Assembly (NCBI GenBank): GCA_024226515.1
Contig: JAAELQ010000239.1
Coordinates: 1 to 64,000 of the forward strand
Length of the DNA: 64,000 nt
Reading direction: 5' to 3'
Source: a bacterium
GTDB lineage: Bacteria > Acidobacteriota > Polarisedimenticolia > Polarisedimenticolales > Polarisedimenticolaceae
The translations under genes were made by a program, and so were the position numbers. This document shows, piece by piece, positions 1,428 through 55,816 of this stretch. The first letter of the stretch is position 1. Each line of letters begins with the position of its first letter. The notes below the pieces were generated by a model. It ran no database searches, was not told where the DNA came from, and saw only the letters and a program-made list of their open reading frames with translations.

Positions 1428-4400
1428 GGCTCTCTCCGCGTCACGTTGTCTCGGCGGTGGTTCTGTGTCTGCTCTGCTGCGCGTCCGTGTCGGCCGAGAC
1501 GGGCGGGCTCGAGGTGTTCGTCGCGGACGGCGGCGAGGGCGCGCCGCTTCCCGGCGCCACGGTCACGCTGAGCAACGAGCAGCAGCTCTCTCCGCCCACC
1601 GCGATGCTGACGGGCGAGGACGGCATCGCGCGTTTTCCGGTTCTGCGCTCGGGCACCGAGTACGTGATCGAGGTCGCGATGCCGGGATTCGCCAGGCGGC
1701 GCATCGCGGATCTGCGCGTCAGCACGGACCAGACATTCCGCGTGGACGTTCCGCTGTCCGAGGAGTTCACGCAGACGGTCGAGGTGACCGCGTCGCGCAG
1801 TGTCGTCGAGATCGACAACCAGGAGAAGGCCAGCCGTTTCGACCAGGAGTTCCTGGAGAGCCTCCCGGTCCCGGGGCGCTTCTACCAGAACATGCTCCCG
1901 CTGGCGCCCGGCGTGAACGACGCCGACGGCGACGGCAACCCCAACGTGCACGGCGGCCGCAAGCGCAACTTCAAGGCCGTGGTCGGAGGGGTCAGCAACA
2001 CCGACCCGTTGACCGGCGAATGGCTGGCGCGCATCAACTCCGAGTCGATCGAGGAGATCGAGATCATCACCGCTGCGGCGGGGGTGGAGTACGGCCGGGC
2101 CTCCGGCGGATTCGCCCGCGTCCTGCAGAAGCAGGGCAGCAACGAGCTCGAGGGCGTGGCCAGTTTCCTCTACGCCTCGTCCGAGCTCGACCGCGACGGC
2201 GGCGGCACGAACTCCGTCGTCGAGGTGCCGGACTTCGAGTGGCTGCAGCCCGCGTTCCACATCTCGGGTCCGATCGTGAAGGACCGCATGTGGTTCCGGC
2301 TGTCCCACGAGTACATCGACCGCGAGCAGCCGGTGGCGTTCATCGACCGGCTCGACGTGATCCAGCGCAAGCAGAGCATGAACGACGACCAGATCACGTG
2401 GCAGCTCTCGCCGCGCAACAAGCTGGCGTTCCAGTTTCAGTCGGACCCGCTGGAGATCGAGAACTTCGGCATGAGCTCGCGCATCCCCGCCGAATCGAGC
2501 CAGCGGCTCGAGCGCGGCGGCGAGACCTACAAGCTCACGTGGACCGCGCCGTACTCCTCGCGTTTGCTCGTCGAGACCCAGGTCGCGTACCAGGATCATG
2601 AACGCAACAGCTACCCGCAAAGCGCGGGCCTGTTCAACGGCTGCGTCGCGTTCGGCCTGTTCGGCGGCACGTTCGCATCTCTCGACCAGTCGGGTTGCAC
2701 CAACACCGACACCGGGCGCGTCAGCGGCTCGTATCCCGAGACGTCACTCGACAACCGTCAGCGACTCTCGGTGCGCAGCCAGGCGACCTACTTCCTCGGG
2801 CAGTGGCTCGGCGCGTCGCACCGGTTGAAGTTCGGCTTCGAGGTGGAGAACGAGCGTTACTACCGCGAACTCGAACGGCGGCCCGACATCACGTTCTTCA
2901 CCGAGATGGTCGGGCTGGGCGAGATCGTCGGCACCGCGACCACGCGCGTGTCGGTGCCCGCCTCGTCGGCGGGCCGCGCGACCGGGACCAGCTGGGCGCT
3001 GTACGCGGAAGATCAGCTGCGGCCGGCGAACGGTCTGTCCGTCACGCTGGGCCTGCGTTTCGACCGCGAGGAGATCAACTCGGAGGGGCAGCTTCCGTTC
3101 GACCCCCAGGCCGAAGCGGCGGAGTTCCTCGAGCGGATTCAGACGGAGGACCCCGTCCGTGTCGCGCAGGACGTCTTCACGGCCTACGGCAACATCGCCG
3201 AGTTCCAGCGCGACCTTGCCGCCATCCTCGGTGTGCTGCCTCCGGAGGTGCAACTGGGCTCGGCCGCTCAGCAGAGCCAGATCTGGAATTCGCGGCGCGT
3301 GGCCGACTCGATCAACATGGTCGAGAACAACATCTCGCCGCGCATCGCCGTCGCCTGGGATCCCTGGGCCAACGGCAAGACCAAGTTCGCGGCAACCGCC
3401 GGGCGTTACTACGACAAGATCGTGCTGGCCGTACCGCTGCTGGAGATCGAACCGCCGGAGGCGTCCCTGGTCTTCACCGCGGTGCCGTTCGGCGACGGGT
3501 TCCTCGCGCTCGACCGACCCTCGGGCGTGGCCCCGACGGTCAGCGTGCACATGGTCGACCGCGACCTCGAGACGCCGTATCAGGACGAGCTGTCGCTGAG
3601 CTTCGAGCGTGAGCTGTGGACCGAGAGCTCGATCAAGCTGACCTACGTGCGACGCAAGTTCCGCGACCAGATCCAGGACGAGGACATCAACCACGTCACC
3701 GGCGACCTGGGCCGCTGCGACCGTTTTCCGAGCGGCAACTACGGCGTGGTCAGGAGCCCCGGCGTCGGGCTGGTCCGCGACGAGAACGACGACTTCTACA
3801 CGGACACCGAGGTCGGCGACGGCGACGGGATCATCGACGACTGCACCGGCGATCTGGTGCCGATCGGAGGGGCGGTCCTCGGCCAGTTCCAGGAGGTCGC
3901 CGACGGGCTGCCGGACCTCTACGTGCAGAACCCGGGCTGGGGCAAGCTGCTGCTGGTCGGCAATTTCAACACGTCGGACTACGAGGCGTACGTGCTGGAG
4001 CTCGTGCGCCGGATGTATCGCAGCTGGCAGCTCAACGCGTCGTACACCTGGTCGGAGGCGATCGGAGATGCCGAGGACTTCACTCAGATCCTCGGCAACG
4101 AGCGCAACCTGACCGAGGACGAGCGCGGCTTTCTCAGCTACGACCAGCGTCACGCCGTCAAGATCAGCGCGATGTCGATCACGCCCTGGGGCTTCCGCCT
4201 CGGCGGTTCCATCCGCTGGGAGTCTGGGCTGCCGTACTCGCTGCTGATCTCGAAACAGACCGTCTTCGCCACCCCGCCGCAGTACCAGAATCTGGGCGAC
4301 CGCGACGTCGACGTACGCTTCCGCTATCCGACACGGCAGCGCAACGATCAGCGCAACCCGGACTACTGGACGTTCGACGTGCGACTGGCCAAGGAATTCT

Positions 4401-26785: not shown

Positions 26786-27819
26786 GGCGCAGTTCGGTTC
26801 TCCTGTTGTTGCTCGCGATCGTCGCGCCTGCCGCGGTCGCCGCGCCGCCGGTCGCGGAGGCGTCCTCCGGCGAAGAGGCGCTTCGCCTGCCGCACACCGT
26901 CGAGCGTGTGTGGTACCGCACGGACGACAAGCGCACGGCCAAGGGCCGTCAGTTCGCGGGGGACCTCACGCTGACCGAGGACGGGATCGAGATCGACGGG
27001 AAGAAGGGGCAGGCGTTTCTGCCCGCCGAGTCGATCCGCTTCGTCTCCCACGGCACGATGCGCGGAGACGTCAATACCGTGTGGACCGTCCTGAGCATGC
27101 AGCGCCCCGGTTCGACGTGGGTCGTGGGACTGAAGGACGGTCGCAAGCTGGGCTTCGGCGATCGGACGGCCGAGATCTACGACCTGCTGCGGCGCTACAC
27201 GCGACAGCTGGGCGTCGGCCCCTACGTCGTGCCGCCGGGGCACGTGGCCTACGACCGGCTCGACCGCCAGTTCGCGTTTGCCCACCCGGAAGACTGGTAT
27301 CCGTTTCATCGGACGCTGGTCGAGATCGACGAGGGCACGCGCTGGGGCACGATGATCTTCGCGGCGGAGAAGATCGATCCTCCGTCGGCCCGCGAAGCGG
27401 AGGAAGTCTCCGAGCGGCGGCGCCAGGTACTGAAACGCGTCGACCGCGGAGAGGTGGCGGCGTTCTTCGTCGATCGCCGCGCGGTCGAAAAGGGGATGGA
27501 CTGCGACGGCCTCTCCGCCGGCGCGCGCAAGCGCCTGCTGGAGTACGCCGCGGAGAAGAACCTGCTCGGCAAGCACGCCGCTGCGCTCGACGCCGCGGCG
27601 GGAACCGATTCGACGGCGGGGGGCTGCGCCGCGGTCGGGTTCGTCGGCACGAGCGGCGAGCACAGCGTGGAACTGGTCGCGGTGACCGACGGCGTGACGT
27701 TGATGTTGTTCGGCTCGAGCGTGCGCTCGGAGATCGCCGGGCAGGTGCGGGATCCGCTCGACACCGCGCTGTCGTCGCTGTTCTTCGCCGCCGCGAGCAA
27801 GAAGATGAGGGAGCGCTGA
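26782..27819 (+). CDS. Secreted protein of unknown function
   Basis: A 345-residue protein with a signal peptide (MRRSSVLLLLLAIVAPAAVA, cut before APPVAEA). I recognise no family. A beta-rich N-terminal half includes DLTLTEDGIEIDGKKGQAFL and WVVGLKDGRKLGFG, reminiscent of a PH-like fold; residues about 150-190 have a segment (DRQFAFAHPEDWYPFHRTLV) seen in secreted hypothetical proteins that read as PsbP-like. Two cysteines are present, in MDCDGLSAG and GGCAAVGFVG. It overlaps the SPOUT gene by 4 bp and precedes the selenoprotein gene by 3 bp, so it belongs to the operon. Confidence 0.6.
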   Translation: MRRSSVLLLLLAIVAPAAVAAPPVAEASSGEEALRLPHTVERVWYRTDDKRTAKGRQFAGDLTLTEDGIEIDGKKGQAFLPAESIRFVSHGTMRGDVNTVWTVLSMQRPGSTWVVGLKDGRKLGFGDRTAEIYDLLRRYTRQLGVGPYVVPPGHVAYDRLDRQFAFAHPEDWYPFHRTLVEIDEGTRWGTMIFAAEKIDPPSAREAEEVSERRRQVLKRVDRGEVAAFFVDRRAVEKGMDCDGLSAGARKRLLEYAAEKNLLGKHAAALDAAAGTDSTAGGCAAVGFVGTSGEHSVELVAVTDGVTLMLFGSSVRSEIAGQVRDPLDTALSSLFFAAASKKMRER

Positions 27820-27822
27820 GCC

Positions 27823-28368
27823 ATGGCCTGGATCAAGACCGTTTCGCCCGACGAGGCCACCGGACTGCTCAGGCAGATCTACGACGCCGCGATCAAGCGC
27901 GCGGGCAAGGTGTACAACGTCATCCGCATGCAGAGCCCCCGACCGCGCGTGCTGCGCGCATCGACCATGCTCTACATGGAAGTCCTGCACTCGGCCGAGA
28001 ACGCGCTCAGTCGCGCACAGCGCGAGATGATCGCGACGGCCGTCTCGCGAGCCAACGGCTGCCACTACTGAACGGTGGCCCACGGCGAGGACCTCCGGGC
28101 CGAGGTTCAAGACAATCCCGACGCGGATCGAGTGGCCGACGCGGTCAAGACCGACTACCGCGACGCGCCGCTCTCCGAGCGCGACCGCGCCATGCTGGAT
28201 TTCGCGATGAAGCTCACGCTCACGCCGCAGAAGATGCAGCAGGCCGACGTGGAGGCCCTGCGCGCGCACGGCTTCGACGACAGCGCGATCCACGACATCG
28301 TCCAGGCGACGGCGCTGTTCGCGTATTACAATCGGATCGCCGACGGCCTGGGTATCGACCCCGAGTAA
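27823..28368 (+). CDS. AhpD-like peroxidase-related selenoprotein (in-frame TGA = Sec)
   Basis: A carboxymuconolactone decarboxylase/AhpD-family protein of 181 residues if the TGA at 28069-28071 is read as selenocysteine (residue 83). Family proteins have the redox motif C-x-x-C-x-x-x-H; here the sequence is C-H-Y-(TGA)-T-V-A-H, so the stop falls exactly on the second, peroxide-reducing cysteine. The frame stays open for 98 more codons with normal family sequence (LSERDRAMLDFAMKLTLTP; DIVQATALFAYYNRIADGLG). An alternative reading as two genes, the second starting at GTG 28075, would split one conserved domain. A stem-loop follows the TGA. AhpD proteins reduce hydroperoxides or thiols. It is the last gene of a five-gene operon. 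selA/selB/selC are not in the window. Confidence 0.85.
28069..28101 (+). promoter_or_regulatory. Putative bacterial SECIS element
   Basis: Immediately after the TGA, GGCCC (28077-28081) and GGGCC (28097-28101) form a 5-bp stem. Inside it GG (28084-28085) can pair with CC (28095-28096), leaving a nine-base loop CGAGGACCT (28086-28094) with G as its second base. The apical loop begins 15 nt after the TGA, near the range known for bacterial SECIS elements recognised by SelB. Folding was done by eye. Confidence 0.55.
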
Positions 28369-28371
28369 GAA

Positions 28372-28559
28372 GCCAGGGGTCTGACCCAACGTTGCAGGCA
28401 CTTATCGGCGTGGGCAAGCCACGATTGGGGTCTGACCCCTGTCCTTGTTGATGCCAGACCAATCCTGCCTGGCCAGCCAGATAGGGTGAGGGGTCAGACC
28501 CCAATCGTGGCCGTTGCGTACGGTGGTTGTTTCTTGCAACGTTGGGTCTGACCCCTGGC
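28372..28559. repeat. 188-bp nested inverted repeat (REP/MITE-like)
   Basis: Outer arms at 28372-28398 and 28533-28559 are inverted copies (25 of 27 bases). Inner arms at 28418-28440 and 28489-28511 are perfect 23-base inverted copies. Each arm carries a GGGTCTGACCC-type core (or GGGTCAGACCC), so four such cores occur. The element fills the whole gap between two convergent genes: 3 bp after the selenoprotein stop and directly at the TAG of the DUF885 gene. Cores of this kind resemble REP sequences mobilised by RAYT transposases, from memory. No transposase is present here. It may act as a two-way terminator or mRNA end protector. Confidence 0.8.
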
Positions 28560-30314
28560 CTATTGCCGCAGCAGGGCGCGGCGAGCCAGCGGCAGCGGCA
28601 GGCCCAGCCTCAGCAGGCGATCGTGAAACTCGGCCAGCTCGAAGGTCTCGCCGCGGGATTCCTTGTGCCGGCGGTACTCGTCGCGCAGCTTGAAGATCTC
28701 CATCCGGCCGTGCGCGTAGTACAGGTAGGTCGGGTCGTACGTCCCGCGTTGCGTCTCGCGCAGCGCGGGAAACGGCGCGAAGTAGGCGATCTCCTCGAAG
28801 CGCCGGGCAGCCTCTTCGAGCGGAACGTCGTAGACGTGCATCGCGAGGCCCGCGTACCAGCGCGCATGCCGCTGCAGCGCGCGGCGTAGCTGTCCCAGCC
28901 GGACGCGCGGGTCCCCGTCGCCCAGCCCCTCGTCGACCATCATCTGCTCGGTGTAGTGCGCCCAGCCCTCGATGAACGACGCCGGCAGGAATACTTTTCG
29001 CACGTCGGTCGGGATCTGCTGCCGGAACAGCAGCTGGACGAAGTGCCCGGGCATGACCTCGTGCACCGAGATGCCGAGAAGACCGGGACGGTTGAAGTAC
29101 GTCAGGTGTTGCGCCTGCTGCTCGTCGGACCACGCGGGGTCGACGGTGGTGATGTTGTAGTACGCCTCGGTCGCGCGTCGTTCGAACGGTCCTGGCGTGG
29201 ACATCGAGGCGAAGCCGCTGCGCGCATAGCGTGGCGTCGGGCGCACGATCGGCAGCTCGTCGGAGGGCAGCGTGACGATACGCCGCCGCAGGACGAACTC
29301 ACGCGCCTCGTCGACGAAGCGTCGCGCGGTCTCGATCAGCTCGTCGGGCGGGGGGTAGTCGGCCGCGATGGACGCCATCACCTCGCGCGCCGTTCGGTTC
29401 GGGTCGACGCGCGCGGCCTCCTTCTCGACCCAGGCCTGGTACTCGCGGATCGCCGCTTCGTTGAACTCGTTGAGCTCGTCGATGTCGACGTCGATGTGCT
29501 CGTCGTAGAGCAGCTTGCGCTGAAACACGTCACGTCCCAATCGGAACTCGCGGTTCTCGCGCCACGCCAGGTCGTCGCGAAGCCAGACGGCGAAGGCGTC
29601 GAGCTGGTCGACCGCGTCGTTGCGCGCCCGCTTCCAGCGGCGGACGAGCTGCGGATCGACCTGGGCCAGTCCCTGCGCGCGGAGCCCCTGCGGCACCTCG
29701 CGGCCGAGGAAGCCGATCGTCCCGCGCGTGTTGCGCAGGGCCAGCTCGACCCACAACTGCGGGGCGCCGTCGAGGTTCTTGCGCGCGGCGCGAACGACAT
29801 CCTGAACGCCGTGCAGGCGCGTGACGAGGCTCTCGAGTCGTTGCTCGAGCGGCGCGAACTCGCGGTCGATCAGCGACGCGATGCCATCGGCGACGGCGCG
29901 CGTGTACAGCATCGGATTGTGACGCCAGCCGGCGACGTGTTCCAGCTCCAGCAACTGCCCGCGGATCGCGTGCTCGAGGATCTCGCGGTCGTAGCGCTCG
30001 TGGGCTTGCAGCGTGTCGGCGTCGATCGACACCAGTCGCTCGAGCCAGCCATGCAGCTCGCGCGTCGAACGCTCGATACCGCCCGGCGAGAGGTCGGGCA
30101 GGCGGTGATCGTGGTCGTGCACCCCGAGCTGGGTCGCGCGCACGGGCCGTGAAGCGAAGTACCAGCCGAGGAACTCGTCGCACAGCGACGAGAAGGCCGA
30201 TGCGCTGTGGCGTGTCGCGTCGAGGGTCGCACTCGGCGGCGGTTTCGTGTGCGAGCCGCCGCAGGCCACGCATACGGCCAGCAGCGCGAGAAACATCGGG
30301 GCCGTGAGCCGCAT
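28560..30314 (-). CDS. DUF885 family lipoprotein (putative metallopeptidase)
   Basis: A 584-residue predicted lipoprotein (lipobox LLAVCVACG, Cys near residue 18). The C-terminal half carries a thermolysin-like zinc pattern of the DUF885 type: ISVHEVMPGHFVQ (HExxxGH) and, about 30 residues later, SFIEGWAHYTEQM with the probable third ligand Glu. The N-terminal half is helical (DEFLGWYFASRPVRATQLGV). The family is thought to hydrolyse peptides in the envelope, but few members are tested. It is transcribed alone toward the nested repeat; a GTGATACGG motif 12 bp before the ATG may be its -10, with no Shine-Dalgarno. Confidence 0.85.
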   Translation of the reverse strand: MRLTAPMFLALLAVCVACGGSHTKPPPSATLDATRHSASAFSSLCDEFLGWYFASRPVRATQLGVHDHDHRLPDLSPGGIERSTRELHGWLERLVSIDADTLQAHERYDREILEHAIRGQLLELEHVAGWRHNPMLYTRAVADGIASLIDREFAPLEQRLESLVTRLHGVQDVVRAARKNLDGAPQLWVELALRNTRGTIGFLGREVPQGLRAQGLAQVDPQLVRRWKRARNDAVDQLDAFAVWLRDDLAWRENREFRLGRDVFQRKLLYDEHIDVDIDELNEFNEAAIREYQAWVEKEAARVDPNRTAREVMASIAADYPPPDELIETARRFVDEAREFVLRRRIVTLPSDELPIVRPTPRYARSGFASMSTPGPFERRATEAYYNITTVDPAWSDEQQAQHLTYFNRPGLLGISVHEVMPGHFVQLLFRQQIPTDVRKVFLPASFIEGWAHYTEQMMVDEGLGDGDPRVRLGQLRRALQRHARWYAGLAMHVYDVPLEEAARRFEEIAYFAPFPALRETQRGTYDPTYLYYAHGRMEIFKLRDEYRRHKESRGETFELAEFHDRLLRLGLPLPLARRALLRQ

Positions 30315-55063: not shown

Positions 55064-55816
55064 ATGCGTAAACCGATCGTTGCCGGTAACTGGAAGATGC
55101 ACAACACGGTCGGCGAGTCGATCGAGCTGGCTGCCGAGGTCAAGCGACACGTGGCCGAGATCGACGCGGTCGAGATCGTGCTTTGCCCGCCGTTCACGGC
55201 GCTCAAGTCGGTCGGCGACCTCGTGCGCTACGGCAACATCGGCCTCGGCGCGCAGACGGTTCATCCCGAGCCGCAGGGCGCGTTCACGGGCGAAATCTCG
55301 ACGGCGATGCTCTCCGACCTGGACTGCGCGTACGTCGTGGTGGGCCACAGCGAGCGGCGTACGCTGTTCGGCGAGACCGACGCCGGCGTGCGGCGCAAGG
55401 TCGAGGCGGTGCTGGACGCCGGCATGCGGCCGATCGTCTGCGTGGGCGAGACGCTGGAGCAGCGCGACGCCGGGCAGGCCGACGACGTCGTGCGCGAGCA
55501 GGTCCGTGCAGCGCTGACCGAGCTGAATCGCGAGTTGCGAGACACGGTCGTGGCCTACGAGCCGGTATGGGCCATCGGGACCGGGCGCACCGCGTCACCC
55601 GAGACGGCGCAGGCGGCCCACGCGCTGATCCGTGCAACGATCGCCGAGCTGGCGACCGCGGCCGTGGCCGACGAGGTGAGAATCCAGTACGGGGGCAGCG
55701 TCAAACCGGACAACGCCGTGGAACTGTTCGGCTGTCCCGATATCGACGGCGGTCTGATCGGAGGCGCGGCGCTCGATGCGGGCGCGTTCGTCAAGATCGT
55801 CCGCGCCATGCTCTGA
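55064..55816 (+). CDS. tpiA: Triosephosphate isomerase
   Basis: A 250-residue triosephosphate isomerase. It interconverts dihydroxyacetone phosphate and glyceraldehyde-3-phosphate. Active-site residues are visible: Asn and Lys in VAGNWKMHNT, His in YVVVGHSERRTLFGE, Glu in AYEPVWAIGTGRTA, and the phosphate loop YGGSVKPDN. GAGGAG lies upstream of the ATG. It follows pgk and precedes a lipoprotein gene by 18 bp. Confidence 0.97.
   Translation: MRKPIVAGNWKMHNTVGESIELAAEVKRHVAEIDAVEIVLCPPFTALKSVGDLVRYGNIGLGAQTVHPEPQGAFTGEISTAMLSDLDCAYVVVGHSERRTLFGETDAGVRRKVEAVLDAGMRPIVCVGETLEQRDAGQADDVVREQVRAALTELNRELRDTVVAYEPVWAIGTGRTASPETAQAAHALIRATIAELATAAVADEVRIQYGGSVKPDNAVELFGCPDIDGGLIGGAALDAGAFVKIVRAML

Follow-up and report, generated by a model that had tools for sequence, protein, structure and literature searches.

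We asked whether a TGA inside an AhpD-like reading frame is a selenocysteine (Sec) codon, as the initial annotation of this locus proposed, or whether it marks a broken gene or the boundary between two separate ones. The locus lies in a 64,000-nucleotide stretch of bacterial DNA that was analysed as a whole (hereafter the window), and all features of the gene described below are on its plus strand.

A single TGA interrupts a TIGR01926-type reading frame

When we translated positions 27823–28368, we found a 181-residue frame that carries one TGA at codon 83 (28069–28071) and ends at a TAA (28366–28368). A GGAG at 27810–27813, 9 nt 5' of the ATG, is a plausible ribosome-binding site judging from the sequence. 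The motif around the TGA reads C-H-Y-U-T-V-A-H; Cys80 (28060–28062) opens the C-x-x-U motif and His87 (28081–28083), which is invariant in our alignment A2, completes C-x-x-U-x-x-x-H. A plain gene caller splits this gene, as had been anticipated: the list of open reading frames shows one piece of 82 aa and another of 97 aa, and the region 3' of the UGA (28072–28365) appears there as a separate ORF that begins at a GTG at 28075.

The description of the locus as an otherwise continuous AhpD/CMD frame with one TGA proved exact. The read-through product matches TIGR01926 (peroxid_rel), the COG2128/YciW-type "peroxidase-related" family of AhpD-like proteins, with 169.5 bits as compared to a cut-off of 81.8 (E 6e-50), and the match covers residues 2–180 and spans the TGA. 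The same product matches the Pfam CMD domain (3.3e-12), and PDB entry 2pfx aligns with residues 18–178. We modelled the read-through protein from an alignment of nine sequences (mean pLDDT 79.8), and the predicted fold resembles the TIGR01926-type crystal structures 2pfx, 2prr and 3c1l with a TM score of about 0.78. The proton-relay residues E68 (28024–28026, also invariant in alignment A2), C80, Y82, U83 and H87 are present and correspond to E36, C48, Y50, C51 and H55 of PA0269 (PMC3141380), an equivalence that we read from residue spacing and alignment A2. At the level of sequence, membership in TIGR01926 and the set of proton-relay residues are far beyond what chance would give.

The TGA is conserved in dozens of genomes

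To see what relatives carry at this codon, we searched 297 genomes and found a match of E 1e-20 or better in 77, most of them with exactly one TGA. Among 70 family members (the window included), the codon is TGA in 62 and Cys in eight, in agreement with the expectation that an alignment of the AhpD family would have either Cys or Sec at residue 83. Five relatives that were fetched afterwards all have the TGA (5/5). Records titled Zixiibacteriota, Latescibacterota, Pyrinomonadaceae and Planctomycetota likewise contain the TGA form.

These data bear on the reading that the gene is a pseudogene, in which a nonsense mutation or a sequencing error turned a TGC or TGT Cys codon into TGA. Seen in one genome alone, such a gene could be explained by the change of one base in a Cys codon. 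However, dozens of genomes within and beyond the phylum share this TGA at 38–66% protein identity; the frame is open on both sides, and many pairs have nearly saturated synonymous sites. With conservation of this extent, a recent nonsense mutation and a sequencing error are both excluded. The pseudogene reading is thus already refuted, and the probability that we leave to it is negligible. Decay downstream of the TGA, which had been named as a sign of a pseudogene, is not seen in the relatives, which are intact there. In the nearest relative, purifying selection is weaker 3' of the TGA (pN/pS 0.71 versus 0.30 upstream), while most other pairs look alike on both sides; near-saturation of synonymous sites in many pairs gives these dN/dS comparisons supportive weight only.

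Some Cys forms (L092 from genome G038, L052 and L099) are nested inside Sec-containing branches of the protein tree, which suggests from sequence that Sec was replaced by Cys repeatedly; the genome that hosts L092 still has selA. In another relative (L106, G167:C117), a CMD domain with a TGA (C-S-Y-U) runs on without a change of frame into a further segment that resembles the beginning of another such domain, possibly a fused two-domain selenoprotein.

The genome encodes a complete Sec machinery and uses TGA as a normal stop

The window's genome assembly is 6.5 Mb in 320 contigs, 97.5% complete with 5.15% contamination. The initial annotation had treated the absence of selB or selC as an argument for a pseudogene; we found all of selA, selB, selC and selD. 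The matches are 530 bits for selA, 327 bits for selB (one full-length copy), 70.8 bits for the tRNA-Sec, to which ARAGORN assigns the anticodon TCA, and 321 bits for selD. A second "SelB" match on contig C278 reads as EF-Tu and was discarded. The selD gene has an in-frame TGA of its own: in this SelD (L018, G000:C172:42160-43086, minus strand) the TGA stands in CAASGG-U and is followed by the hairpin GGUCC-GGA-GGACC. We considered whether the Sec genes come from contamination, and the composition test argues against it. The stretches that carry them have the GC content (0.68–0.69) and tetranucleotide profile (r 0.98–0.99) of the window, and contamination is therefore unlikely; for comparison, a genome of the same family also gave r 0.98 and more distant genomes gave 0.41–0.90.

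Across the 297 relatives, 61 of the 66 genomes that have the TGA form also carry selA, whereas the figure is 134 of 231 for those that lack this form (Fisher p 2.6e-8, indicative only because the genomes are related) and four of 11 for genomes with the Cys form only. The five TGA-form genomes (5/66) in which selA was not detected include three that are 72–75% complete and two that are 91% complete.

We sampled the selenoproteome of the window's genome and observed other TGA-containing frames. A second AhpD-like gene with a TGA (L080, G000:C157:15551-16075, minus strand) has the motif C-R-Y-U-V-A-H-H. On the contig that also holds the tRNA-Sec, a DsbA/Thioredoxin_4-like frame (L123, G000:C189, about 18,084; TGA 3083–3085, minus strand) reads EFSEFQ-U-PYC and matches PF13462 at 1.4e-29; its score for NF041057, an NCBIfam seleno family, is below the cut-off, and judged by its sequence it is probably another selenoprotein. 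The genome is likely to encode at least two further selenoproteins.

Another reading takes the UGA as decoded by something other than Sec, either in a reassigned code or by a near-cognate Trp or Cys tRNA, or takes the locus as two separate proteins. The GTG at 28075, just past the TGA, does allow a second ORF of 97 aa; however, the active-site motif straddles the TGA. TGA also serves as a normal stop more often than TAA or TAG in the window, where it ends 22 of 29 strongly coding ORFs, and thus the code is not reassigned. The genome has the full Sec set with a tRNA-Sec whose anticodon is UCA, and none of the Cys-type homologues that we collected has Trp at residue 83, where all have Cys. We consider non-Sec read-through or two separate proteins highly improbable.

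Several lines of evidence, namely the match to the family, the TGA shared among relatives, the genes for Sec incorporation and a hairpin with covariation (described below), indicate that the TGA encodes Sec, as the initial annotation had proposed, and we are confident that the gene encodes a selenoprotein, one product of 181 residues with a UGA-encoded Sec83.

A scan for coding signatures also flagged a TGA at window position 55814, which lies in one frame between a tpiA-like end and a secG-like start. We rejected it as a recoded codon; it appears to be a normal stop that separates two neighbouring genes.

A covarying hairpin downstream of the UGA

The proposed SECIS hairpin lies at 28089–28108, 24 nt past the UGA, and has a 7-bp stem (28089–28095/28102–28108), a 6-nt loop (CGGGCC, 28096–28101) and an energy of –8.5 kcal/mol. 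The bSECIS rules call for a loop of 3–9 nt with a G in its first two positions, a distance of 16–37 nt from the UGA and an energy of at most –7.5 kcal/mol (PMC13188914), and the hairpin fits them, with its G at the second loop position. When we ran RNAalifold on 12 orthologues of the window's clade, we obtained a 7-bp hairpin at nt 21–27/34–40 (T of the UGA = 1) in which 84 of 84 cells are paired. In 19 homologues, 96.2% of the cells of this stem are paired and the outer pair is C-G in ten sequences and G-C in nine, figures that are inflated because part of the 19 sequences were grouped by their pairing in this register. No shuffle or sliding control on these 19 sequences came near the hairpin in cells paired or in covariation. 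In a protein tree from which the Sec residue had been left out, the group defined by the hairpin falls into a single clade, with one change (support 72/86, 66% of bootstrap trees), and two sequences fetched after the hairpin had been defined (L125 and L126) form 7/7 pairs each. For the leucine within the stem, 17 of 17 codons are CTC; in the rest of these genes, CTC accounts for 94 of 260 leucine codons.

The window sequence taken alone gives a different picture. There, the hairpin is no more stable than synonymous shuffles (z 0.67), and the minimum-energy fold of the single sequence favours another stem. Because the single-sequence signal is not significant, the case for a SECIS rests on the family. 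The initial annotation had pointed to a GC-rich stem that begins 6 nt past the TGA; such a stem can be drawn (28077–28081/28097–28101), but the fold does not exceed shuffles in stability (z –1.38), and 75.8% of the stem's cells are paired versus 75.4% when shuffled. As a conserved signal we rejected it, since it behaves like shuffled columns in both the 12 and the 19 homologues.

The gene could encode a selenoprotein while SelB recognises a different stem, such as 28077–28101, or other cues. The preference of the minimum-energy fold for the other stem and the unremarkable hairpin at 28089–28108 in the window alone both speak for this; against it, covariation is found only in the hairpin at 28089–28108, which also satisfies the published bSECIS rules (PMC13188914), and the other stem behaves as shuffled columns do. 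We judge a signal elsewhere to be quite unlikely, and the hairpin at 28089–28108 is very probably the SECIS. Within the window, Rfam gave no match at its gathering threshold and ARAGORN found no tRNA.

The hairpin lies further from the UGA in the window's clade

We compared the position of the hairpin among family members, again counting from the T of the UGA. In most other members, the stem is at nt 14–20/24–30 with the loop at nt 21–23, and in some the loop is at about nt 22–26. In the window's clade, the stem is at nt 21–27/34–40 with the loop at nt 28–33, and the distance to the UGA is about 7 nt greater. When the nearer position was tried in the window's clade, 61.9% of cells were paired without covariation, and we rejected it. 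Within the window's own genome, SelD and the AhpD-like paralogue (L080) have the hairpin at nt 14–20/24–30 and the DsbA-like gene has its loop at about nt 22–26. The Cys homologues form at most 5/7 pairs in the two main registers that were tested.

On balance, we favour the view that the recoding hairpin was shifted by about 7 nt in the window's clade, apparently once, while SelD, the DsbA-like gene and the paralogue keep the nearer position. We found no description of such a shift in this family in the literature examined. A distance of 16–37 nt from UGA to loop is accepted for bacteria generally (PMC13188914), so the shift is a variation within known limits. If it is real, one SelB must accept two spacings, and the lineage offers a natural experiment on the distance between SECIS and UGA; orthologues and paralogues with differing SECIS positions would make a clean set for the spacing tolerance of SelB.

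Proposed role of Sec83

We propose that SelB, bound to the hairpin at 28089–28108, would deliver Sec-tRNA(Sec) to the UGA at 28069–28071, and that the ribosome would make one 181-residue protein with the active site C80-x-x-U83-x-x-x-H87. From its sequence, this protein is a putative peroxidase or thiol-oxidoreductase. Sec83 would most likely be the activated nucleophile that attacks a peroxide or an oxidised partner; it would then form a selenenylsulfide with Cys80, which a cellular reductant would reopen.

In redox selenoproteins the attack is usually made by Sec, which argues against Sec83 being the resolving residue, as the initial annotation had worded it. That wording is also doubtful by homology: in Mycobacterium tuberculosis AhpD, Cys133, the second Cys of the motif and the equivalent of Sec83, lies exposed at the bottom of the active-site cleft and makes a mixed disulfide with AhpC, whereas the first Cys is partly buried (PMC6626918). 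This homology favours Sec83 as the attacking residue, the reverse of the earlier wording, and we think it probable that Sec83 attacks and Cys80 resolves. For AhpD of Burkholderia thailandensis, the more important Cys of C-x-x-C was reported to be the first (PMC6626918), which would suit a resolving Sec83; against this stands the exposed second Cys that bonds AhpC in the mycobacterial protein, and we regard a resolving Sec83 as unlikely.

The gene neighbours include no obvious redox partner. Upstream is a protein without a Pfam match; downstream are a DUF885 protein, a FAD-dependent oxidoreductase and RtcB. Parts of the order TrmH-type methyltransferase (assigned by sequence), protein without Pfam match, this gene and DUF885 are kept in a genome of the same family (G002), and the order is partly kept in a further genome (G003), which fits vertical descent. 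Just 3' of the gene, at window positions 28367–28564, there are REP-like palindromic repeats around GGGGTCWGACCCC in four copies, with one 23-nt perfect inverted pair; the exact 13-mer is found at 11 genomic sites, often in clusters.

Comparison with known systems

By score this protein is not a classical AhpD, as it misses the TIGR00777 cut-off by far (23.4 versus 191.95). M. tuberculosis AhpD, a TIGR00777 protein, has in common with it the C-x-x-C-x-x-x-H core and the proton-relay residues; a role as partner of AhpC would be putative for the window protein. The peroxidase-related proteins 2pfx, 2prr, 3c1l, 2oyo and 6k40 share fold and motif with it at 36–40% identity in structural alignment and have Cys where the window protein has Sec, as seen in the alignments of 2pfx and 6k40. 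The NCBIfam seleno equivalogs NF041238 (AhpD_rel_CFYUT) and NF053654 (GroundWater_YciW) are related CMD-fold selenoproteins, and the window protein misses the cut-off of both (69.7 versus 175 and 40 versus 310, respectively).

The match is with the AhpD-like CxxU selenoproteins of COG2128/TIGR01926, which are of the same domain family, have C-x-x-U with Sec as the second residue, and have Cys homologues. These were described from 27 sequences in 2005 (Zhang et al., PMC1088965), AhpD-like 1 was represented by 299 sequences in GOS (PMC2398784), and an AhpD-like CxxU selenoprotein is listed as TIGR01926 in a 2026 review (PMC13188914). The Sec form is common in this lineage (66 of the 297 relatives searched), and therefore annotation should read the UGA through. 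Thus, the window gene is a further member of a selenoprotein family known since 2005, for which a redox role was likewise proposed; unlike most of the AhpD-like CxxU members that we collected, its clade has the SECIS hairpin about 7 nt further downstream.
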